The notes beneath the pieces are model-generated. The model searched no databases. It had not been told where the DNA came from and saw nothing but the letters and a program-made list of their open reading frames with translations. A stretch of 33,488 nucleotides of DNA from Chitinophagaceae bacterium (lineage in GTDB: Bacteria; Bacteroidota; Bacteroidia; Chitinophagales; Chitinophagaceae), in NCBI GenBank assembly GCA_016786785.1, contig JAEUVR010000115.1, forward strand, positions 1 through 33,488, read 5' to 3'. Of this stretch, positions 603-28,349 are shown piece by piece. Position 1 is the stretch's first letter. Each line of letters opens with the position of its first letter. A program made the translations under genes and the position numbers.

Positions 603-1859
603 ATGCATATAAAAACGAGAAAGACTTGTAGGGTCTGCGGTTCAGCATCCTTAAAGAAAGTGATTGATATTGGAGAGCAGTACCTTCAGGGGTCTTTTAT
701 AAAGCCAGGCAAAGAAATACCTTCCATGCGAAAGATTCCATGCTCCCTCGTACGCTGCTCGCCGGAAGATGATGAAGATGCTTGCGGACTACTTCAGATG
801 GAACACTCTGTTCCTCCTGAAATATTGTATAACGCTTATTGGTATCGATCGGGCACAAATGATACTATGAGGAATCATCTTAAGGAAATTGCCGGGTCTA
901 TACTGGCGATTATTAACAAAAAAACAGCTTCTGTCCTTGATATTGGATGTAATGACGGCACATTTTTAAATAACTATCCCGCTTCTTTTAACAAATACGG
1001 ATGCGATCCCAGCGATGTTGCCCGGGAAGTTGAAGGCGCTACCGTAGTTCAGGATATCTTTCCTTCCGAAAAATTGTTTTCTCTTTTGAAGGGCGCCAAA
1101 CTCGACGTTGTTACTTCCATTGCTATGTTTTATGATCTTGAAAGTCCCGTTAAGTTTGTTAAGGAAATTAAGAAGATACTCTCTCCGGAAGGGATATGGG
1201 TTTTTGAGATGAGCTATATGCCTCATATGCTTGAGTCGGATTCTTATGATACTATCTGTCATGAACACCTGGAATATTATAGCCTTGCCGCAATTGAAAG
1301 GATATGCTCGTTAGCGGAAATGAAATTGTTTAAGGTCTCATTTAATAGCATAAATGGCGGAAGTATTCGATGCTATGCCACGCATCTCGAAAATAGTTCT
1401 TTTGATAATAAGATCGATCAGCAATTTTTATATTCGATTAGGCAGAAGGAATTTGATATGATGTTGGATACGGATAAGCCGTATGTGGAATTCCAGCGTC
1501 GGATAGAAGATCGTAAGCGCGAATTGTCAGATCTCCTGACAAGGATAAAAAATGAAGGGAAACATATTCATATTTATGGGGCGTCTACCAAAGGCAATAC
1601 AATCCTGCAATGGTGTAACCTGGATAATAACCTGATTGATTATGCGGCTGAAAGAAACCCCGACAAATATGGGGCAATTACATTAGGCACAAACATTCCC
1701 ATTATTAGCGAAGAGGAAAGCAGAAAAATGAAGCCTGATTTTTATTTAGTGCTGCCCTGGCATTTTAGAGAGGAGTTTTTAAAGAGAGAAAAAGATATAT
1801 TAGATCAGGGAACAGGGTTGATCTTCCCGTTGCCGAAAGTTGAGATTTTTAAGAAGTAG
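603..1859 (+). CDS. Sugar C-methyltransferase-like SAM enzyme (three-domain)
   Basis: The 418-residue protein has the three-part layout of deoxysugar C-methyltransferases of the NovU/TylCIII/TcaB9 type. An N-terminal zinc-binding part has a CxxC pair (C9, C12) and more Cys residues near 47-62. The central SAM domain carries motif I VLDIGCNDGTFL at about 111-122. The C-terminal domain contains HIHIYGASTKGNTILQWC near 323-340, as in the methyltransferase-14 family. Known members add a methyl group from SAM to C3 (sometimes C5) of an NDP-4-keto-6-deoxysugar. The nearby gmd could supply a GDP-4-keto-6-deoxy sugar, but that substrate link is inference. Many family members in glycan clusters have no proven substrate. 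It is co-directional with the FkbM gene 35 bases downstream. Confidence 0.8.
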   Translation: MHIKTRKTCRVCGSASLKKVIDIGEQYLQGSFIKPGKEIPSMRKIPCSLVRCSPEDDEDACGLLQMEHSVPPEILYNAYWYRSGTNDTMRNHLKEIAGSILAIINKKTASVLDIGCNDGTFLNNYPASFNKYGCDPSDVAREVEGATVVQDIFPSEKLFSLLKGAKLDVVTSIAMFYDLESPVKFVKEIKKILSPEGIWVFEMSYMPHMLESDSYDTICHEHLEYYSLAAIERICSLAEMKLFKVSFNSINGGSIRCYATHLENSSFDNKIDQQFLYSIRQKEFDMMLDTDKPYVEFQRRIEDRKRELSDLLTRIKNEGKHIHIYGASTKGNTILQWCNLDNNLIDYAAERNPDKYGAITLGTNIPIISEEESRKMKPDFYLVLPWHFREEFLKREKDILDQGTGLIFPLPKVEIFKK

Positions 1860-1894: not shown

Positions 1895-2602
1895 ATGGGC
1901 ATGAGAAATATATTGGGGAAGGTTGTTAGCAGGGCGTTGCTTCCGAATCTGCAACTGGCTTATGCACAGGCTGGAGAAGATCTTATTCTGGCAAGATTGT
2001 TTTATAAAGAAAATATTCTTAAGCCGTCCTATTTGGATATAGGAGCCAATCACCCCTCGTACCTGAGCAATACTTATTATTTTTATGTCAGAGGAAGCAG
2101 AGGGGTTTGTATTGAGCCTAATCCTGTTTTATTTAGAAAGTTTAAGAAGGTCAGGACATCGGATACTGTTTTGAATGTTGGCGTAGGGATCGGAGAGGAG
2201 AAAGAGGCGGACTTTTATTTGTTTTCCGGGCGTTTTGACGGGTTGAGTACTTTTTCGAAGGAGCAGGCTTACTATTGGAAGAATGTGGGGATGGATAAAG
2301 TAGGAAAAATAGATTTTGACCGGATAATCCGGGTTCCTTTATTACGGGTCAATGATATTCTTCAGCGTTATTGTGCAACGCTTCCAGATTTTATTTCTAT
2401 TGATGTGGAGGGGCTCGATCTGGAGATTTTGAAATCCATTGATTTTAATACTTATCGGCCGCTTGCTTTTTGCGTTGAAACATTGGGGTATGATGCCAAT
2501 CAGAAGGAGTATAAAAGAACGGAGATCGAAGATTTTCTTGTAAATAAGGATTACAAGGTTTACGCAGAAACAAGCATTAATACCATATTTATAAGAAACT
2601 GA
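1895..2602 (+). CDS. FkbM family methyltransferase
   Basis: The 235-residue protein carries the FkbM layout: an N-terminal QAGEDLILARLF segment (about 24-35), SAM motif I YLDIGANHP (about 46-54), the acidic IEPNP motif near 73-77, and FISIDVEGLDLEIL at about 165-178, which is diagnostic of the family. FkbM-type enzymes O-methylate sugars or polyketides using SAM. Here the likely acceptor is a glycan residue, because the gene lies between a C-methyltransferase and an NDP-sugar enzyme. No signal peptide is seen, so it should act in the cytoplasm. The ATG at 1895 is followed two codons later by a second ATG. No Shine-Dalgarno sequence is visible. The exact acceptor is not readable from sequence. 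Confidence 0.85.
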   Translation: MGMRNILGKVVSRALLPNLQLAYAQAGEDLILARLFYKENILKPSYLDIGANHPSYLSNTYYFYVRGSRGVCIEPNPVLFRKFKKVRTSDTVLNVGVGIGEEKEADFYLFSGRFDGLSTFSKEQAYYWKNVGMDKVGKIDFDRIIRVPLLRVNDILQRYCATLPDFISIDVEGLDLEILKSIDFNTYRPLAFCVETLGYDANQKEYKRTEIEDFLVNKDYKVYAETSINTIFIRN

Positions 2603-2619: not shown

Positions 2620-3495
2620 TTGAGCGCTACCGCAATAATATTCGGAATAAATGGCCAGGATGGATTTTATCTTTCAAGGTTTCTGGAAAGCCGAGGCGTT
2701 TCTGTAATAGGAATTTCAAGAAAAGATATTTCAGAAACTTCCGGAATTCACAACTTTGAGTGGGTCAAGTATCTGATCGAACGGTATCAGCCGGAATATA
2801 TATTTCATTTTGCCGCAGTTTCCACGACTAGCCATCAATCGCTTTTTGATAATTACCAGGCTGTTTCTACAGGCGCCATTAATATATTGGAGGCTGCTAA
2901 GGTCGTGTCGCGGCGCTCGAAAATTTTTATCTCCGGTAGCGGGCTTCAATTTAAAAATACAGGTTTGCCTATAAAGGAGTCTGATCCCTTCGAGGCCCGC
3001 GACGCCTATTCTCTATGTAGAATACAATCGGCTTACGCCGCTAGATATTATCGTTCGCTGGGTCTAAAAACATATATCGGCTATTTTTTTAATCATGATA
3101 GTCCTCGCAGAACGGAACGGCATGTAAGTAAAATGATTGCTAATGCGGTTAAAAGTATTGCTAAGGGAGAAGATGTAAAAGTAGAGATAGGAGATATTTC
3201 GGTCGTAAAGGAGTGGACATTTGCAGGCGATATTGTTAATGCTGTTTGGACATTTGTCCAACAGGAGGAAATTGGGGAGGCTGTATTGGGTTCGGGGGAG
3301 GGATATTCTATCATGGAATATATTAAAGAATGCTTTGCCCTGATTGATAAGGATTGGGAGGATTATGTAGTTATGCAGAATGATTTTAAGCCGGAATATA
3401 AAAGGTTGGTTTCTGATCCTTCCCTTATTTATAGCCTTGGATGGAAGCCCGAAATTAGTTTTTCGGGACTCGTTAAAATGATGATCGGTGAATAA
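2620..3495 (+). CDS. GMD-like NDP-sugar SDR with altered active site
   Basis: This 291-residue extended SDR resembles GDP-mannose 4,6-dehydratase but is shorter (GMD is about 350-370). The nucleotide loop GINGQDG is at 9-15. FFNHDSPRR at 156-164 matches the LFNHESPxR segment of GMD. Where GMD has STSELYG, this protein has SGSGLQF (105-111), so the catalytic Thr and Glu positions are both Gly. The SDR YxxxK motif reads YSLCR (130-134), with Arg in place of Lys. Only the Tyr remains. A standard dehydratase is therefore unlikely. It may be a reductase, epimerase or non-catalytic partner acting on a GDP-sugar, possibly after the convergent gmd product. The start is TTG at 2620. An in-frame stop at 2611 and the need to include the Rossmann loop rule out another start. 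The next gene follows after 8 bases. Confidence 0.75.
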   Translation: MSATAIIFGINGQDGFYLSRFLESRGVSVIGISRKDISETSGIHNFEWVKYLIERYQPEYIFHFAAVSTTSHQSLFDNYQAVSTGAINILEAAKVVSRRSKIFISGSGLQFKNTGLPIKESDPFEARDAYSLCRIQSAYAARYYRSLGLKTYIGYFFNHDSPRRTERHVSKMIANAVKSIAKGEDVKVEIGDISVVKEWTFAGDIVNAVWTFVQQEEIGEAVLGSGEGYSIMEYIKECFALIDKDWEDYVVMQNDFKPEYKRLVSDPSLIYSLGWKPEISFSGLVKMMIGE

Positions 3496-3503
3496 TTTCT
3501 CAT

Positions 3504-4622
3504 ATGGCGCCAACTAAAATCCTATTAGTTCAATTGTTTTCTAATGGAGACTGTTTATATGCAACGGCTATTGCAAAACAAATTAAACAAGATTTCCCAG
3601 GTTGCCGTCTGTATTGGGCTATATCTACCGCTTGCAAAAGTATTATCGCCGGTAATCCTTATGTTGATGAAACGATTGAAGTTTCTTCGGTTGCCAAAAA
3701 TGACGCTCCGGCTTATAGACGATTTATAAAACAGGTTAACCGAGATAAGCGCCTGGGCAAATGGGATGAAGTTTTTATTACGCATATCATGGGCGCTAAC
3801 CAGGCCAATTATGACGGGAGCATAAGGTCTGCAATATTCAGAGGTTATGGCAGGCCGGTTACTGTTGGGGCGACGATGACGCTTCGGTTAACTGAAAAGG
3901 AGAAGGAAAATGTCCGGCAGTTTGCTTCTAATCATAAATTATCCGATTTCCAAAATGTTATTTTATTTGAGTTTGCCCCTCAAAGCGGGCAATCTTCTAT
4001 TACACTTTCCCAGGCGCTTTTGATTGCCGAAAAATTGGCGACGAGGAATGACACGGCGATCATTCTATCTTCTTCCCGGCAAATTATACACGAAAACAAC
4101 CGGATTATCGACGGCAGCGCGCTTACGATAAGGGAAACTGCGGCCCTTACGCATTCTTGTTCATTTCTGATCGGTTGCTCAAGCGGTATTACCTGGCTCT
4201 CTACTTCAGATGAGGCTAAGCAGTTGCCAATGGTGCAGCTTCTTAATCCATATACAAATTGGGTAAATCCTCCGTCGAGGGATTTTAAACGGTTTGGACT
4301 AAACATCAGGTTGATAGAATTAATAGATTTTGATATTGCTAAAGTAGCGGTCTGCGTAAACGATGCGCTGAATGATTTTGAGAACGCAAGGAGAAAATAT
4401 AATCAGGAAATACCGCTTCATTTCCGAACGACCAGAAGCATTGTTTATAATCTCCTTTGTTATCTTGAATTTCCAGCTATTTGGAGACATATCCGGATCA
4501 ATAGTCAAACCTATGGGTTTAATCTTTCTTTTTATAAGGAGACGGCAATGGGTTTTATGATATTCCCATTTAAATTGGCGAAGAATTTATTTGTAAAAAA
4601 AGTACTGAAAATCCAACGCTAG
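3504..4622 (+). CDS. Glycosyltransferase family 9 / heptosyltransferase-like protein
   Basis: The 372-residue protein has a GT-B-like layout of the ADP-heptose:LPS heptosyltransferase family (GT9). The N-terminus ILLVQLFSNGDCLYATAIAKQIKQ matches the GDxxLxTPxxxxLK signature, with Gly-Asp before a helix. A second signature, SFLIGCSSGITWLS near 219-232, corresponds to the GxDSGxxHxA acceptor/donor loop, with Ser-Ser in place of Asp-Ser. GT9 enzymes transfer heptose or related sugars to lipopolysaccharide inner core on the cytoplasmic side of the inner membrane. The loop difference makes the donor uncertain. The gene is co-directional and tightly spaced with the GMD-like gene upstream. It is convergent with gmd, the two stop codons being only 7 bases apart. 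Confidence 0.75.
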   Translation: MAPTKILLVQLFSNGDCLYATAIAKQIKQDFPGCRLYWAISTACKSIIAGNPYVDETIEVSSVAKNDAPAYRRFIKQVNRDKRLGKWDEVFITHIMGANQANYDGSIRSAIFRGYGRPVTVGATMTLRLTEKEKENVRQFASNHKLSDFQNVILFEFAPQSGQSSITLSQALLIAEKLATRNDTAIILSSSRQIIHENNRIIDGSALTIRETAALTHSCSFLIGCSSGITWLSTSDEAKQLPMVQLLNPYTNWVNPPSRDFKRFGLNIRLIELIDFDIAKVAVCVNDALNDFENARRKYNQEIPLHFRTTRSIVYNLLCYLEFPAIWRHIRINSQTYGFNLSFYKETAMGFMIFPFKLAKNLFVKKVLKIQR

Positions 4623-4629
4623 GTGATTG

Positions 4630-5727
4630 TTATTTGCCCGGGGCTAAGATCTTTAATGTTTTTCCCGTCTGTTTTTGGAAGATCAGCTCCTTCTCCATCA
4701 TTTCTACCACCAGCATTTCGAGCGTGTATTTAGGCGCCCATCCTAATTTGGTCCTGGCTTTGGCGGCGTCGCCAATAAGTATATCGACCTCTGCTGGCCT
4801 GAAATAACGAGGATGGATGCTTATTACTTGTTTGCCGATCGGTAATTGATAGGATGAGTTATTGCATTTGGCAATAAAACCTTTCTCCTCTACGCCGGCG
4901 CCCTCAAATTTTAATTCTATTCCGGCGTATGAGAAGGCAAGTATTACAAAGTCGCGGACAGAAGTGGTTTTTCCCGTGGCAAGGACATAGTCTTCCGGAG
5001 CGTCTGATTGCATCATCATCCACATTCCTTCAATATAGTCTGCGGCATGTCCCCAGTCTCTTTTAGCGTCAAGGTTTCCCAACAATATAATATCTTCCAG
5101 CCCCATAAGTATTTTCGAAACACCTATGGTTATCTTCCTCGTAACGAAGTTTTCTCCCCTTAGCGGACTTTCATGATTGAACAATATGCCGTTTACCGCG
5201 TATATTCCATAAGCTTCTCTGTAATTGACCGTTATCCAATAAGCATAAAGTTTGGCTACCCCATAAGGAGACCTGGGATAAAACGGCGTTTTCTCATTTT
5301 GAGGGATTTCCCGTACCATTCCATAAAGTTCGGAAGTGGATGCCTGATAGAACCTGGTTTTCTTTTCTAATCCCAATATCCTAATAGCTTCCAGAAGCCT
5401 GAGCACGCCAATAGCATCTGCATTTGCGGTATACTCTGGAGTTTCAAAACTTACTTGCACATGGCTTTGAGCGGCTAGGTTATATATTTCGTCCGGCTGA
5501 ATTTGTTTAATGATCCTGAGAAGATTTGACGAATCGGTAAGATCGCCATAATGAAGATGGAATTTCTCCATTAATGATTTATCGAAAAAGATATGATCTA
5601 TCCGGTCGGTATTCATTAAAGAGCTTCTTCTTTTAATGCCGTGTACGATATATCCTTTATTTAAGAGAAACTCTGCAAGATAAGCCCCGTCCTGGCCTGT
5701 AATGCCCGTTATTAGCGCTGTCTTCAT
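4630..5727 (-). CDS. gmd: GDP-mannose 4,6-dehydratase
   Basis: The 365-residue protein is a full-length canonical GMD. The NADP-binding loop [14 protein letters not shown] is at 8-21. The 2'-phosphate-binding IKRRSS follows at 31-36. The catalytic STSELYG motif (Thr131, Glu133) and [10 protein letters not shown] motif (Tyr155, Lys159) are intact, as is [18 protein letters not shown]. It converts GDP-D-mannose to GDP-4-keto-6-deoxy-D-mannose, the precursor of GDP-L-fucose, GDP-D-rhamnose, GDP-colitose and C-methylated derivatives. The usual partner fcl is absent from the window, so the product here is open. It lies on the opposite strand to the flanking glycan genes. Its promoter should lie in the roughly 145-base divergent gap shared with the GT2 gene, but no clear Bacteroidota -7 box was found there. 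Confidence 0.97.
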
Positions 5728-6885: not shown

Positions 6886-6894
6886 ATATATTTG
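6864..6894 (+). promoter_or_regulatory. Likely Bacteroidota-type promoter for the DNRLRE lipoprotein gene
   Basis: A TATATTTG at 6887-6894 fits the TAnnTTTG -7 consensus exactly. TTTC at 6864-6867, one base from the TTTG -33 element, lies 19 bases upstream, the usual spacing. Transcription would begin near 6900, giving a leader of about 16 bases before the ATG at 6916. The -7 box directly follows the GT2 stop codon, so the lipoprotein gene may be transcribed independently of it. Confidence 0.5.
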
Positions 6895-6915
6895 GCAATA
6901 TTTAATATTTTAATT

Positions 6916-7647
6916 ATGAAAAAATTTAGCATATACATTCTTCTTGGGTTTGGCATTTCTGTTTTTTTATTTAGTTGTGATAAATTAGAACAATATTTCC
7001 CTAACCTTAAAGCTAAAGCGAAGAAAATGACATTGCAGCCAGGCCCTTCTGATGGTCAGGATTGCCTGGTCGCATATCGTGATACTGATAATGGTCTTTA
7101 TGCCGGAGCAAATCATAAGGTGAATCCGGATGTTACGGCCATTCGCTGGACTTACAATGAAGTTGGCGCCGGGCAAGGCACCAACAGAACATATATAAAA
7201 TTTTTAGGCCTTTCCGAAATTCCTTCTAAAGCAGAGATCATCTCTGCTAAATTGTCTCTTTATGGCGTGGAGTCAGGCGTTGCCGCGCCTTTGGGTAATT
7301 CGTACTATCCGGGTTCTCCATATCAAGGTTATGGCGACAATGCATCTTGGTTGAAAAGGGTATTGAGTGATTGGAGCGATTCAACGATTACCTGGAATAA
7401 TAAACCGGCCACTACCGATGAAGATCGCACTGCTGTTCCGGCTTCAACGGCGCAATGGAATTTTAATGCTGTTGATTTAGACGTTACTGCTATGGTTAAG
7501 GAAATGGTAAAAGGGGGTAAGAATTTCGGGTTTTGTCTTGAACTCCAAAATGAGGAAATATACAGGTCTATTTTATTCGGGAGCAGCGAGCATACAAACC
7601 CGGCAAAAAGACCTAAGCTGGAGGTTGAATATTTAGTTTCTCATTAA
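6916..7647 (+). CDS. DNRLRE (CBM96-like) domain lipoprotein
   Basis: The 243-residue protein begins MKKFSIYILLGFGISVFLFSC, a lipoprotein signal with a predicted lipidated Cys21. The mature part resembles DNRLRE/CBM96-type beta-sandwich modules. It has YIKFLGLSEIPSKAEIISAKLSLY in the middle, WSDSTITWNNKP, and a C-terminal segment ending GSSEHTNPAKRPKLEVEY. Such modules bind polysaccharides or decorate the cell surface. It probably sits on the outer membrane or its periplasmic face. An upstream TTG (6892) would add eight residues but would spoil the signal peptide and overlap the -7 box, so the ATG at 6916 is used. The 3' end overlaps the convergent GT4 gene by 15 bases. The position inside a glycan locus suggests binding of the polymer made there, which is inference. 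Confidence 0.8.
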   Translation: MKKFSIYILLGFGISVFLFSCDKLEQYFPNLKAKAKKMTLQPGPSDGQDCLVAYRDTDNGLYAGANHKVNPDVTAIRWTYNEVGAGQGTNRTYIKFLGLSEIPSKAEIISAKLSLYGVESGVAAPLGNSYYPGSPYQGYGDNASWLKRVLSDWSDSTITWNNKPATTDEDRTAVPASTAQWNFNAVDLDVTAMVKEMVKGGKNFGFCLELQNEEIYRSILFGSSEHTNPAKRPKLEVEYLVSH

Positions 7648-17206: not shown

Positions 17207-17980
17207 ATGAGCAGAAAAACAGCGTTGATTACCGGAAGCGTTAGCGGCATAGGCCTGGGTATTGCCGAAGCTTTTGCGGAAAAAGGGTACAATATCGTTT
17301 TTAACGGCCTCGAAAAAGACGGCGCATCGATCGCTGCGCGCGTGGCCGAAAGATATCAGGTTAACCATTTTTTCTCCGACGCCAATATGCTTGAGCCGGA
17401 ATCCCTGCGAGGACTGGTTCGCCAATGCGTCGATTGTTTCGGCGGTATCGACGTGTTGATCAATAATGCGGGTATTCAACATGTATCGCCGGTAGAAAGT
17501 TTCCCGGAAGACAAATGGAACGCGATCATCAACATTAACCTGAACGCCGTATTCCATCTTACTAAGGCCGCATGGCCGTATATGAAGGAAAGGCGGTTTG
17601 GGCGCATCATCAATATTGCTTCCGCGCATGGTTTGTTTGCCTCTGAATACAAAAGCGCTTATGTAGCGGCAAAACATGGAGTAGTAGGATTCACCAAAAC
17701 GGTCGCGCTGGAAGGAGCGGGGTTAAATATTACCTGCAATGCTATTTGCCCGGGTTATGTAAAGACGGCGTTGGTGGAAAAACAGATTGCCGACCTGGTT
17801 GAATCGCGCCAGTTGTCGGAAAAGGAAGCGATCGATGATGTACTGCTGAAAAAGCAGGCGGTAAAAGAGTTTGTCCCGGTGAAGTTAATTGCCGATATGG
17901 CGCTGTTCCTGGCTTCGGATAATGCCGCTGCCATAACCGGGATAGCCCTCCCAATAGATGGCGGATGGTCGGCCCAGTAG
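17207..17980 (+). CDS. 3-hydroxybutyrate dehydrogenase-like SDR
   Basis: The 257-residue classical SDR has the NAD loop TGSVSGIG (9-16), NNAG (86-89), and the catalytic Ser139, Tyr152 and Lys156. Gln91, His141, Lys149 and Gln193 occupy the positions that bind the substrate carboxylate in bacterial D-3-hydroxybutyrate dehydrogenases. The flanking CPGYVKTALVEKQI (181-194) and the C-terminal DGGW are also typical. The family oxidises (R)-3-hydroxybutyrate to acetoacetate with NAD. In this operon of sugar-acid genes it may instead act on a small beta-hydroxy acid derived from the sugar. It is the first gene of the operon, behind a predicted long leader, with the divergent AraC gene upstream. Confidence 0.85.
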   Translation: MSRKTALITGSVSGIGLGIAEAFAEKGYNIVFNGLEKDGASIAARVAERYQVNHFFSDANMLEPESLRGLVRQCVDCFGGIDVLINNAGIQHVSPVESFPEDKWNAIININLNAVFHLTKAAWPYMKERRFGRIINIASAHGLFASEYKSAYVAAKHGVVGFTKTVALEGAGLNITCNAICPGYVKTALVEKQIADLVESRQLSEKEAIDDVLLKKQAVKEFVPVKLIADMALFLASDNAAAITGIALPIDGGWSAQ

Positions 17981-18096
17981 ATCGGTCTTCATGGCATGGA
18001 TCGACGATTATTCATTTGAGCCAAAGCGCTTAAATTCACTATAATGCCGAACAGTTGCGGCTTTAAAATTATTATTCATTATTATCAAGAGGCAAA

Positions 18097-19044
18097 ATGG
18101 AAAAATTGGGAATTATCGGTTGCGGAACGATGGGACATTCTATTGCATTATCTGCCGCCTGGGCGGGAATGCCTGTAAGCGTACACGGATTGAATGATAC
18201 AGAAATACAAAGGGCGGAGGAAGGCCTTATCGATAAACTGCGACTGCTGATGCAGTATGGCGTTATAAAAGAGACGGCGATCTCGGAAATATTGAACCGG
18301 ATCCGTTTTACCCGGTCTATTGACGAAATAGCGGCGGCTTCTTCTTTTATTATTGAAACGATACCCGAAAACATGGCGCTGAAAAAGGAATTGTTTGCTT
18401 ACCTGGATAACAGGTGTTCGCGGGAAACCATCCTGGCTACCAATACTTCGGGACTTAGCCCGACGGAAATGGCTGCTGCAACCGCCTTTCCGCATAGGGT
18501 AGTGGTAACGCATTTCTGGAACCCGGCTCACCTGATCCCATTGGTGGAGGTAGTCAGGGGAGAAAAGACAGGCGACCAAACTGTTGAACGGGCTTTTGGA
18601 CTGTTACGATCGATGAGTAAAAAACCTATTGAAGTGAAAAAGGAAGCGCCGGGATTTGTGGGCAACCGCCTTCAGTTCGCGCTCCTGAGGGAAGCGCAAT
18701 ATATATTGGAGCAGGGCATCGCTTCAAAAGAAGATATCGATGCGGCCGTTACCTATGGAATTGGAAGAAGACTGCCGGTAACCGGGCCGCTGGTTTCTGC
18801 GGATATGGGCGGACTGGATGTTTTTGCGGCCATAGCTGATTATTTATTCAGCGACCTGAGCAATGCCGTCGCCGCCAGCTCCGGTTTGAAACAACTGGTC
18901 GCCGCTCAAAAATACGGGGCCAAATCAGGGGAAGGATATTATGAATGGCCTCCTTCTTTTTATGAAGAAAGGCATCGGGCCAGAGAGGCTGCGCTGATCG
19001 GGTTCCTGAAACAGGACCAGTCGGCAAATAACGCAGCAGAGTAA
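18097..19044 (+). CDS. 3-hydroxyacyl-CoA dehydrogenase family oxidoreductase
   Basis: The 315-residue protein has the N-terminal NAD domain with GCGTMG (8-13), NTSGLSP (116-122), the catalytic His139 in THFWNPAHLIPLVEVV, and Glu151. The C-terminal dimerisation domain begins APGFVGNRLQ (184-193). Its size and the tryptophan-containing HFWNP motif fit the group that includes L-carnitine dehydrogenase and L-gulonate 3-dehydrogenase as well as 3-hydroxybutyryl-CoA dehydrogenase. No thiolase or enoyl-CoA hydratase accompanies it, so a free hydroxy acid or sugar acid is a more likely substrate than an acyl-CoA. A purine-rich AAGAGG precedes the ATG at 18097, unusual for this group of bacteria. The 116-base gap from the previous gene could hold a second promoter, but none was recognised. 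Confidence 0.82.
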   Translation: MEKLGIIGCGTMGHSIALSAAWAGMPVSVHGLNDTEIQRAEEGLIDKLRLLMQYGVIKETAISEILNRIRFTRSIDEIAAASSFIIETIPENMALKKELFAYLDNRCSRETILATNTSGLSPTEMAAATAFPHRVVVTHFWNPAHLIPLVEVVRGEKTGDQTVERAFGLLRSMSKKPIEVKKEAPGFVGNRLQFALLREAQYILEQGIASKEDIDAAVTYGIGRRLPVTGPLVSADMGGLDVFAAIADYLFSDLSNAVAASSGLKQLVAAQKYGAKSGEGYYEWPPSFYEERHRAREAALIGFLKQDQSANNAAE

Positions 19045-19165
19045 TACGCGCGTTGGTATAAATGATAATTGATGAATACAACGGGCTAATAAACTGATAT
19101 TTTCCTGTAAAATGATCTCCTAATTTTACAAAGGGGCTCGTCTCTGTCATTTTTATTTTACGCCA

Positions 19166-20878
19166 ATGCAAAAAAAATTACGCAGCCAAAGCTGGTTTGG
19201 TAAAAAGGGTAAGGATGGGCTTATCTATCGCGCCTGGATGAGGAACCAGGGGATACCTTCTTATGAATTTGAAGGAAAACCGATCATAGGAATATGCAAC
19301 ACATGGTCGGAGTTGACGCCCTGTAACGCGCATTTCCGGGAGCTTGCAGAATCAGTAAAACGAGGCATATCGGAAGCAGGAGGCTTTCCCGTTGAATTTC
19401 CGGTCATGTCCCTCGGAGAAACGCTCATGAAACCTACTACCATGCTTTTCCGGAACCTGGCGAGCATGGATGTGGAAGAATCGATCAGGGGCAACCCGAT
19501 AGACGGCGTAGTACTGTTATGCGGTTGCGATAAGACCACTCCTTCTTTATTAATGGGCGCCTGCAGCGTTGATATCCCTACTATTGTTGTTTCCGGCGGA
19601 CCTATGCTTACAGGGAAGTACAGGGGAAAAAATATCGGAACTACGGATATCTGGCGGTTTGCCGACGAGGTGAAAGCTGGCGTTATGTCGCAGGAAGCGC
19701 TGAATGAGGCCGAAGCCGGATTATGCAGGAGCAGGGGGCATTGCGCAGTCATGGGCACCGCTTCCTCGATGGCCTGTATGGTAGAAGCATTGGGCATGTC
19801 GCTGCCCGGGAATGCCGCTATTCCCGCCGTTGACGCCGGCCGGAAAGTATTGGCGCAGCTATCCGGCATCCGGATCGTAGAGATGGCGAAAGAAGGTTTG
19901 AAAATATCGGATATTCTTACGCGTAAGGCATTTGAGAACGCCATTAAGGTTAACGCGGCGGTCGGCGGCTCTACTAACTTTGTTATTCACCTGCTAGCGA
20001 TCGCGGGCAGGGTCGGAACGCCGTTGACAATAGACGATTTTGATATCGCGCGCTCCAGTCTCCCGCTGATGGTAAACCTGCAACCTTCCGGCCAGTATTT
20101 TATGGAAGATTTTTATTATGCCGGCGGTCTTCCGGCGGTAATGCGGGAGATAAGCGATCACCTTCATAAAGATTGCATTACGGTGAACGGCAGAAGCGTA
20201 GGCGAAAACATAGGGCGCGCTGAAAATATCAATACGGAGGTAATTGCCTCCGTCAACGCGCCTTTTAAAAGAGATTCGGGCGTGATCATTTTAAAAGGAA
20301 ATATATGTCCCGATGGCGCCGTCATCAAGCCCAATGCCATTAGCGAACAACTGAGGAAACATAGCGGAAAAGCGGTAGTATTTGAAAATATTGAAGAATA
20401 CAAAGAACGCATCGACGATCTTGATCTGGAGGTTGATGAAAACAGCGTGCTGGTGCTTAAAAACGTAGGGCCCAAGGGATATCCCGGCATGCCGGAAGTG
20501 GGCAATATGGGCCTGCCGAAGAAATTACTGGAAAAAGGCGTTACGGATATGGTGCGGATATCAGATGGGCGAATGAGCGGGACTGGTTTTGGAACGGTGG
20601 TTTTGCATGTGTCGCCTGAAGCGGCCGAGGGAGGTAATTTCGCCGTGATCCGGTCGGGAGATACGATAGAACTCGACATTGATCAGCGGACCCTGAACCT
20701 GGTCGTACCAGAAGAAGAGCTGACGCGTCGCAAACAATTGTTCAGGCCCCAGGCTGATCCTATCAGCAGGGGGTATGCCTATCTGTATAAGCGGCATGTT
20801 GAACAGGCGCACCTGGGCGCTGATCTTGATTTTTTAAAAGGAGGATCCGGAAGTGTCGTGACCAGGGATTCTCACTAA
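19166..20878 (+). CDS. IlvD/Edd family sugar-acid dehydratase (L-arabinonate dehydratase-like)
   Basis: The 570-residue protein is of usual length for the IlvD/Edd family and belongs to the sugar-acid branch. It opens SWFGKKGKDGLIYRAWMRNQG, then IGICNTWSELTPCNAHF, as in L-arabinonate and D-xylonate dehydratases. The three Fe-S cluster Cys residues are at 44, 121 (GCDKTTPS) and 193 (GHCAVMGTAS). DGRMSGTGFGT near the C-terminus completes the active site. The enzyme removes water from an aldonate to give a 2-keto-3-deoxy acid. The family acts on L-arabinonate, D-galactonate, L-fuconate or D-xylonate, and sequence alone does not settle which. The next gene starts 4 bases downstream. Confidence 0.92.
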   Translation: MQKKLRSQSWFGKKGKDGLIYRAWMRNQGIPSYEFEGKPIIGICNTWSELTPCNAHFRELAESVKRGISEAGGFPVEFPVMSLGETLMKPTTMLFRNLASMDVEESIRGNPIDGVVLLCGCDKTTPSLLMGACSVDIPTIVVSGGPMLTGKYRGKNIGTTDIWRFADEVKAGVMSQEALNEAEAGLCRSRGHCAVMGTASSMACMVEALGMSLPGNAAIPAVDAGRKVLAQLSGIRIVEMAKEGLKISDILTRKAFENAIKVNAAVGGSTNFVIHLLAIAGRVGTPLTIDDFDIARSSLPLMVNLQPSGQYFMEDFYYAGGLPAVMREISDHLHKDCITVNGRSVGENIGRAENINTEVIASVNAPFKRDSGVIILKGNICPDGAVIKPNAISEQLRKHSGKAVVFENIEEYKERIDDLDLEVDENSVLVLKNVGPKGYPGMPEVGNMGLPKKLLEKGVTDMVRISDGRMSGTGFGTVVLHVSPEAAEGGNFAVIRSGDTIELDIDQRTLNLVVPEEELTRRKQLFRPQADPISRGYAYLYKRHVEQAHLGADLDFLKGGSGSVVTRDSH

Positions 20879-27077: not shown

Positions 27078-28349
27078 TTAACGGAGGTATTTGTCTGCAA
27101 AGTCCATATACTGGTTCCAGTCGTATAACGTGATGTCATGCTTGCCCGTCCGGATATGATACCTGACCCTGTCGCCTACGGGATGGTTTTCGGCGGGCAT
27201 CTCTTCTCCACCTAGTCCGGTAAATTTATATAAGCGGTAAACGGGCTCAGCATTTTTAGCAGAAAGAAATTCGCCTTTAGGATCGGCCCAGAGGTCCTCG
27301 CTTGCGCTGGCCACGTACAACGGGCGGGGCGCAATTAGCGATAAAAGCATGTGCTGGTCTACCGGCAGCTGATCTGCCTTATTGTTATACGTTTTGTATT
27401 TGGCGACGAACCAATGCGGGAAGGTATTATTCAGGTCCCAGATCGTTTCTCCGAATAGTCTGCGGGAGAGCGCCGCTCCGCCTTCCCCCGAATTGTTTGA
27501 GATCGCTATGGCAAAACGCCGGTCGTTTGCAGCGGCCCATAAAGCGGTCTTGCCTAGCCGGGAATGCCCTATTACAATGGTCTTTGTAGCGTCTACGGCG
27601 GGATCCGTTTCCAGGTAATCCTGGATACGGCTTAACGCCCATGCCCATACGCTGATGGCGCTCCACGATTCGGGTTGGATATGCAGGCGATCCTTCAGCG
27701 TGGTCCTGAACCCTTGCTTCCAGCCGTCTTTATCGTCTACCTCGATATCTTCATAATGAACGGTGGCTACGCCATATCCTCTTTTGATCGCTTCTTCGAT
27801 CTCCCAACGGCTGGCAGTCGTTCCTCTTAGCGCTTCCTGCGAGGCCAGGGTAGGAATATCGTCGGGGGTTTCCTTTTTCCAGTGTCTGCTGATCAGTATG
27901 CCTTTATCGGCGTTGACGCGATGATTTCCTTTGAAATTGAGCCCCACAAATACGGGAGCCTTAGGCGAATTTTTGGGCAGGTATAAAAGTATATTCATGG
28001 AAGGCGCATCGGGGCCTTCGCCAAAATAAGCGGTAACCTGTTTCCTGATCGCTGTTCCGTTTAATGCCGCGTTATCTATATCGGTCAGCTCGAAATGCAT
28101 GCCCTGGGGCTTTCCCGGGATCCTTCCATATACATGCTCCGTAAACAGGGCCAACACATAAGGGCGTTGTTTTTTTTCCCACTCTTTTGCGCTGCTGATC
28201 TTTTTGCCATTTATAGATAGCAGCGGATCGGGAAGCGTATAAGGCGGGATCTTTGATTCGTCGTAATTGGTGGGAACCGGGCGCCGCTGCGCCTTAACGC
28301 CGGCGCTATTCAGGATAACGGCCAATAGGAGAAAGCATACAGGTTTCAT
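27078..28349 (-). CDS. CE15 glucuronoyl esterase-like secreted hydrolase
   Basis: The 423-residue protein begins with a signal peptide (MKPVCFLLLAVILNSAGVKAQ, cleavage near 20). It has the alpha/beta-hydrolase features of carbohydrate esterase family 15. The nucleophile elbow GHSRLGKTALWAAA has Ser263, with SNNSGEGGAALSRR at 284-297 and the catalytic His404 in TGKHDITLYDW. CE15 enzymes cleave the ester between glucuronoxylan methylglucuronate and lignin alcohols. Acting in the periplasm or outside, it suggests use of plant cell-wall glucuronoxylan. The acid residue is probably among Glu351/Asp352 (SASEDLWADP), but alternatives exist. It is on the opposite strand to its neighbours, and a 147-base divergent gap separates it from the PQQ dehydrogenase gene. 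Confidence 0.85.
   Translation of the reverse strand: MKPVCFLLLAVILNSAGVKAQRRPVPTNYDESKIPPYTLPDPLLSINGKKISSAKEWEKKQRPYVLALFTEHVYGRIPGKPQGMHFELTDIDNAALNGTAIRKQVTAYFGEGPDAPSMNILLYLPKNSPKAPVFVGLNFKGNHRVNADKGILISRHWKKETPDDIPTLASQEALRGTTASRWEIEEAIKRGYGVATVHYEDIEVDDKDGWKQGFRTTLKDRLHIQPESWSAISVWAWALSRIQDYLETDPAVDATKTIVIGHSRLGKTALWAAANDRRFAIAISNNSGEGGAALSRRLFGETIWDLNNTFPHWFVAKYKTYNNKADQLPVDQHMLLSLIAPRPLYVASASEDLWADPKGEFLSAKNAEPVYRLYKFTGLGGEEMPAENHPVGDRVRYHIRTGKHDITLYDWNQYMDFADKYLR

Follow-up and report, generated by a model that had tools for sequence, protein, structure and literature searches.

The closest described relatives of the SDR studied here are the GDP-mannose 4,6-dehydratases (GMD; TIGR01472; 1n7h, 1rpn, 2z1m, 1db3), which share with it the GDP_Man_Dehyd domain, the GxxGQDG and FNHxSPxR segments and the active-site Tyr, and form the nearest group in the tree. 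However, identity between the two is 26–34%, and the SDR has Leu for the catalytic Glu, Arg for the catalytic Lys and K-E-W/F for RDW. RMD (GDP-6-deoxy-D-lyxo-4-hexulose reductase; 2pk3, 6x3b) belongs to the same superfamily, is a ketoreductase on the kind of substrate proposed below and, like the SDR, keeps little of the segment that follows residue 37. On the other hand, it forms a separate clade, has Phe-Val/Ala where the SDR has Gln-Asp in the glycine motif and Gln where the SDR has Arg at position 164, and 2pk3 keeps both Glu and Lys. GDP-L-fucose synthase (GMER, fcl) is also comparable, being a reductase with Ser-Tyr plus a basic residue that follows GMD, but it belongs to another clade, and the position of its dual-function acid/base residue, Cys109, is hydrophobic in the SDR. 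The route proposed for virenose in Coxiella includes Gmd, a TylCIII-type methyltransferase and GMER (PMC3539893). It takes its steps in the same order as the pathway proposed here, in that a GDP-sugar is dehydrated, then methylated at C3 and finally reduced at its 4-keto group; both routes are predictions. It differs in that its GMER-like reductase has the canonical residues (PMC3539893). The methyltransferases MtmC and TcaB9 (4rv9, 4e2w) are whole-length homologues of the sugar C-methyltransferase (CMT) encoded beside the SDR and share its Glu-His pair, whereas other active-site positions are changed in the cassette-linked CMTs whose motif was read. Few residues of the SDR superfamily are as well conserved as the lysine of YxxxK, and other SDRs mutated to Arg there in the laboratory are weaker catalysts.

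The SDR is encoded in a stretch of 33,488 nucleotides from a Chitinophagaceae bacterium (contig JAEUVR010000115.1), here called the window. Its gene stands fourth in a run of five that are read in the same direction, for DUF4254, C-methyltransferase, FkbM methyltransferase, SDR and GT9-like transferase, with intergenic gaps of 12, 35, 17 and 8 bases in gene order, and a canonical gmd is convergent with this cassette (Table 1). The frame encodes 291 residues from a TTG start, as the sequence-only reading had it; an alternative start codon is absent between this TTG and the in-frame upstream stop at 2611, and the homologue in a genus-mate genome, 87% identical, begins with TTG too. The FkbM slot is variable, and other genes stand there in other loci. 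Homologues of the GT9-like gene lie within five genes of the SDR in 42 of the 82 loci, 37 of them at position +1. The DUF4254 protein is highly similar from phylum to phylum (mean column identity 65%) and often has a fixed place in the cassette; its AlphaFold model is an all-helical bundle of low confidence (pLDDT 78.9, pTM 0.50). Elsewhere in the window, a probable lipoprotein at 6892–7647, with the signal-like LLGFGISVFLFSC and a CBM96 / Disaggr_repeat match, adjoins the glycan genes. A run of genes for an SDR, a 3-hydroxyacyl-CoA dehydrogenase-like protein and a dihydroxy-acid/phosphogluconate dehydratase at 17207–20878, together with a glucuronyl esterase-like gene at 27078–28349, looks like sugar-acid catabolism.

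Table 1. Cassette genes, SDR motifs and the neighbouring gmd, with positions in the window.
Feature	Positions	Strand	Basis
DUF4254 protein, cassette gene 1, 151 aa	135–590	+	Pfam PF14063, 34.8 bits; homologues within five genes of the SDR in 40/82 loci
Sugar C-methyltransferase (CMT), distinct subfamily (SIAMFYDLE / DTICHEHLE), usual partner of the SDR	603–1859	+	Pfam Methyltransf_13, _23, _14
FkbM-family methyltransferase	1895–2602	+	Pfam PF05050, TIGR01444
Short GMD-like SDR with Ser-Tyr-Arg active site	2620–3495	+	ORF, Pfam/NCBIfam, alignments, tree, model
SDR nucleotide-binding motif GINGQDG, residues 9–15	2644–2664	+	G9, Q13, D14 invariant; G15 in 84/86
SDR G106-S107-G108-L109, opposite GMD STSE (Ser for Thr, Leu for Glu)	2935–2946	+	Alignments
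SDR Y130-S-L-C-R134, YxxxR for YxxxK	3007–3021	+	Y and R in 86/86 homologues; K in 39/39 GMDs
SDR FNHDSPRR, residues 157–164	3088–3111	+	F157, H159, S161, R164 invariant
SDR K197-E198, for Arg-Asp of GMD RDW	3208–3213	+	K and E in 86/86; R and D in 39/39 GMDs
GT9-like (heptosyltransferase-like) glycosyltransferase, usually the next gene after the SDR	3504–4622	+	TIGR02193, E 8e-7, below cutoff
Canonical GDP-mannose 4,6-dehydratase, gmd	4630–5727	-	TIGR01472, 569.7 bits, cutoff 415

The sequence-only reading had described a GMD-family SDR in which the Thr, Glu and Lys of the active site are replaced. The altered site is borne out, with Leu for Glu and, as had been noted, YxxxR for YxxxK, but Ser for Thr is a conservative change, so two residues are truly replaced. 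Ser stands at the catalytic Thr position in 13 of the 39 GMD-clade sequences compared, and it has been described in several GMDs (PMC3539893). The earlier mapping of STSE onto SGSG was one position out: in the alignment the Glu of GMD falls on Leu109 and not on a Gly. The GINGQDG and FNHxSPRR segments are kept, as had been noted. A second Lys/Arg exchange is also fixed, since the Arg-Asp of the GMD motif RDW is Lys-Glu throughout the SDR clade, while R34 is found in 55 of 58 clade members and in all 38 GMDs that have a residue there. The SDR is 26–27% identical to the gmd product of the window and had been estimated to be about 75 residues shorter. The count holds (291 versus 365 residues), but two of the three missing segments are absent from short GMDs too. 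The 74 residues are mainly three stretches, of 21 behind residue 37, 26 behind residue 246 and 19 at the tail, and a short GMD of 311 residues (L016) is without the 26- and 19-residue segments as well. The segment after residue 37, of which 17–22 residues are absent relative to GMDs, is thus, as judged from the alignments, the one distinctive deletion of the SDR; in GMD this segment follows beta-2 and is the RR loop, which makes tetramer and cofactor contacts, and the SDR is predicted to have lost the GMD tetramer.

The SDR is confidently modelled by AlphaFold (72 homologues; pLDDT 95.7, pTM 0.92) with the GMD/RMD fold. Of the solved structures, GMDs match it best (1n7h with Z 37.1 and an rmsd of 1.9 over 287 residues), and RMD 2pk3 comes next with Z 35.8, a gap so small that the fold by itself does not tell a dehydratase from a reductase. 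The protein scores 156.9 bits against Pfam GDP_Man_Dehyd (PF16363) and 125.9 bits against the NCBIfam gmd equivalog TIGR01472, under the cutoff of 415. It has the Rossmann fold, the GxxGxxG motif and the catalytic Tyr of the extended SDR superfamily, with YxxxR instead of YxxxK in all 86 homologues. From the GMD catalytic set of Thr/Ser, Glu, Tyr and Lys it keeps the Ser and the Tyr, and when compared with the Ser, Tyr, Lys and Cys109 of GMER it has Arg for Lys and a hydrophobic residue at the second acid/base position.

The 86 homologues are sequences at 40% identity or more to the SDR; a few represent the same contig fetched twice, so they correspond to about 82 distinct loci. The relatives number at least 86, from 80 loci kept from one genome-collection scan, nearly all of them clade members, and from genomes of the same family. 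S107, Y130, R134, H159, S161, R164, K197, E198 and D204 are invariant in all 86, and the Glu position holds Leu, Val, Met or Ile in 85. The homologues were picked by similarity and not by the Arg, so this invariance is not circular, although it is bounded by the identity threshold. The TTG start and the clustering of unusual residues in one short stretch could be taken as signs of a sequencing error or a decaying pseudogene. The frame, however, is open over its full length, and S107, Y130 and R134 occur in every homologue, including the one from the genus-mate; the altered site is therefore neither an error, which had been considered for positions 2932–3024, nor decay, and the chance of either is negligible.

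In the tree, a branch with SH-aLRT 100 sets the homologues off as a single clade, next to the GMDs and apart from RMD, RmlB and fcl; the tree comes from a quick search without bootstrap, in which long branches were flagged, and E. coli fcl stands apart from the SDR clade on such a long branch. In this tree the SDR does not fall within a reductase or epimerase clade that has been characterised, an outcome that the sequence-only reading had named as evidence against itself, and tree and residues together show that it belongs to neither the RMD nor the GMER clade. SDR loci were found in Bacteroidota, Cyanobacteriota, Pseudomonadota, Thermodesulfobacteriota, Nitrospirota, Acidobacteriota, Myxococcota, Planctomycetota, Verrucomicrobiota, Lentisphaerota and Abditibacteriota and, among the archaea, in a few methanogenic Methanobacteriota, several of the MAGs in this list being named only roughly. 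Culturable bearers of the cassette include Agriterribacter humi and Methanolobus profundi. A 137 kb viral contig from IMG/VR carries an SDR homologue (L113:7947–8849; 41% identity, YSVAR) among glycosyltransferase-like genes, and a C-methyltransferase is absent from the 16.8 kb examined around it. Plasmid and phage records searched with the SDR gave only matches below 60% identity, the best at about 31%. A second, separate lineage of YxxxR SDRs is RMD-like, keeps GSSEEYG or GSTEEYG and has Arg for the catalytic Lys; its members (L059:10858–11835, L063:13151–14119, L102:13584–14540, L104:8111–9070) lie near some SDR loci, and a query with one such protein matched 4 of 50 genomes. A literature search of partial coverage, and hence of little weight, found no natural YxxxR SDRs, and neither an assayed enzyme of the SDR clade nor its sugar product was found in the literature searched.

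The sequence-only reading had framed the gene as an altered paralogue paired with the active gmd of the window. This framing missed the real partner, which is the CMT, and GDP-fucose synthase is present in most of the genomes checked. The CMT lies within five genes of the SDR in 69 of the 82 loci, on the same strand in 67 of these 69. Across the window's family (246 genomes), strong CMT matches (E 1e-89 or better and at least 41% identity, the next match being at E 4e-53) occur in 18 of the 20 SDR-positive genomes versus 1 of the 226 SDR-negative ones (Fisher p 4e-24, kinship ignored). In one genus (g145; genomes G303, G487 and G538) the two genes are both present on different contigs, and where an SDR locus is without the CMT the contig often ends close by. 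Four long SDR frames (L084, L091, L106, L107) were considered as fusions that might reveal the partner and rejected, each being an extended upstream reading with no domain fusion; that of L107 looks like an out-of-frame methyltransferase. The best solved relatives of the CMT, homologous along its whole length, are the D-mycarose 3-C-methyltransferase MtmC and TcaB9, and the protein has Methyltransf_13, the methyltransferase core, Methyltransf_14 and the Glu-His pair. The motifs SIAM..YDLE and DTIC.EH are common to nearly all SDR-linked CMTs (in two the first was unmatched by the pattern used), whereas two ordinary family methyltransferases in the same neighbourhoods have NNVLAHV and DTIYHEHF instead. 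Relative to TcaB9 and MtmC, the subfamily is altered at active-site positions (MFYDLE, CHEH) with Glu-His kept. The SDR clade is thus tied to a distinct subfamily of sugar C-methyltransferases. So tight a pairing with one methyltransferase subfamily, along with the replacement of two residues of the dehydratase set, might suit a subunit of Gmd or the CMT that regulates or serves as a scaffold and has no catalysis of its own. We regard this as very unlikely, because a disused site would decay and here Ser107, Tyr130 and Arg134 are invariant across many phyla and the nucleotide-binding motif is kept.

Compared with the CMT, gmd is less strongly tied to the SDR. It is found in all 20 SDR-positive genomes of the family versus 183 of the 246 overall (p 0.002), and in 46 of 50 SDR-positive genomes from the wider set, the four without a match all being MAGs. 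It is the commonest dehydratase seen within SDR loci, although it stands in only 28 of the 82. The presence of gmd somewhere in a genome is weak evidence, because most of these genomes (42 of 50) also have GMER; such genomes probably make GDP-fucose, and their gmd can serve that purpose. TylC3-type methyltransferases, moreover, classically use dTDP-4-keto sugars. On both grounds the SDR could be a ketoreductase on a dTDP-, UDP- or CDP-sugar in genomes where gmd is present for GDP-fucose only. This seems quite improbable, since sequence, tree and fold all place the SDR among enzymes of GDP-sugars, and since, beside the 28 loci with gmd, no more than two of the neighbours put into the tree grouped with E. 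coli rfbB. In the five genomes with gmd and no GMER match, gmd lies in the SDR locus in 5 of 5, versus 7 of 41 others (p 0.0006), a post hoc comparison made after seeing the data. An RMD query against these five gave at best 34% identity, and its top match was gmd itself in four of them. One locus (L088) is a bare trio of CMT, SDR and gmd in a row.

We hypothesize that the SDR is an active NADPH-dependent ketoreductase that works after Gmd and the CMT on a GDP-3-C-methyl-4-keto-6-deoxyhexose, with a probability of roughly 0.5. The loss of Glu removes the base needed by a 4,6-dehydratase and leaves the reductase-type set of Ser, Tyr and a basic residue, so the enzyme would use a Ser107-Tyr130-Arg134 active site without the dehydratase base. 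The gmd of the window, which is likely the source of the 4-keto substrate, would make GDP-4-keto-6-deoxymannose, and the CMT would add a methyl group to the carbon adjoining the keto group, which by homology is C3. The SDR would then reduce the 4-keto group with Arg134 in place of Lys, and the product, a GDP-3-C-methyl-6-deoxyhexose, would enter a surface glycan via the GT9-like enzyme and other transferases. We infer that the carrier is GDP, that C3 is methylated and C4 reduced, that the steps run in this order, that Arg134 takes over from Lys and that NADPH is used, for which the retained R34 argues. Against the ketoreductase reading stand the lack of an assayed clade member in the literature searched, the GMER that in most SDR-positive genomes explains gmd otherwise, the four such genomes with no gmd match, the absence of gmd from most SDR loci, the weaker catalysis of Arg mutants of other SDRs and the differences between the CMT and TylC3-type enzymes (MFYDLE for NVLAHV, CHEH for YHEH), which mean that the regiochemistry may differ.

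The same loss of Glu with Ser, Tyr and a basic residue kept would also fit redox chemistry without dehydration, and H72, N113, R142, H168 and C238, specific to the SDR clade in the alignment with GMDs, point to a changed pocket. The SDR could then act before or around the CMT, for instance by oxidising C4 of a non-dehydrated GDP-hexose and later reducing it back, or it could epimerise the 4-keto sugar. This alternative, with which the many loci without gmd agree, is unlikely: gmd is found in nearly all the genomes and, wherever it occurs with no GMER match, sits in the SDR locus, and 3,5-epimerisation in particular is opposed by the hydrophobic residue at the acid/base position of GMER Cys109 and GMD Glu. 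Whether as ketoreductase or otherwise, the suggestion of a different reaction on the same GDP-sugar, which the sequence-only reading had offered next to a regulatory subunit, is favoured over the latter: the hydrophobic residue for the Glu base, the invariant Ser and Tyr, the likewise invariant Arg of SPxR, the retention of most of the nucleotide-binding motif and the tie to the CMT, closer than that to gmd, all support it indirectly.

The family and its pairing with the CMT are solid, and the reaction stands at about even odds. The label 'GDP-mannose 4,6-dehydratase' is probably wrong for proteins of the SDR clade, and the pairing with one CMT subfamily turns generically annotated proteins into a testable pathway for methyl-branched sugars. 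The Arg fixed in every clade member found is natural material that tests how the lysine of YxxxK works. The relatives of the SDR in bacteria, a few archaea and one virus, most of them with a CMT, probably make little-known methyl-branched cell-surface sugars. Slightly short of an even chance, in our view, is the joint claim that a Lys-to-Arg SDR and a dedicated CMT clade form an unrecognised pair that makes methyl-branched GDP-sugars, that this pair has spread to methanogenic archaea and through some eleven phyla of bacteria, and that the SDR also occurs in at least one virus. It would mean that, a few pathogens and antibiotics apart, a class of branched surface sugars has gone unnoticed.
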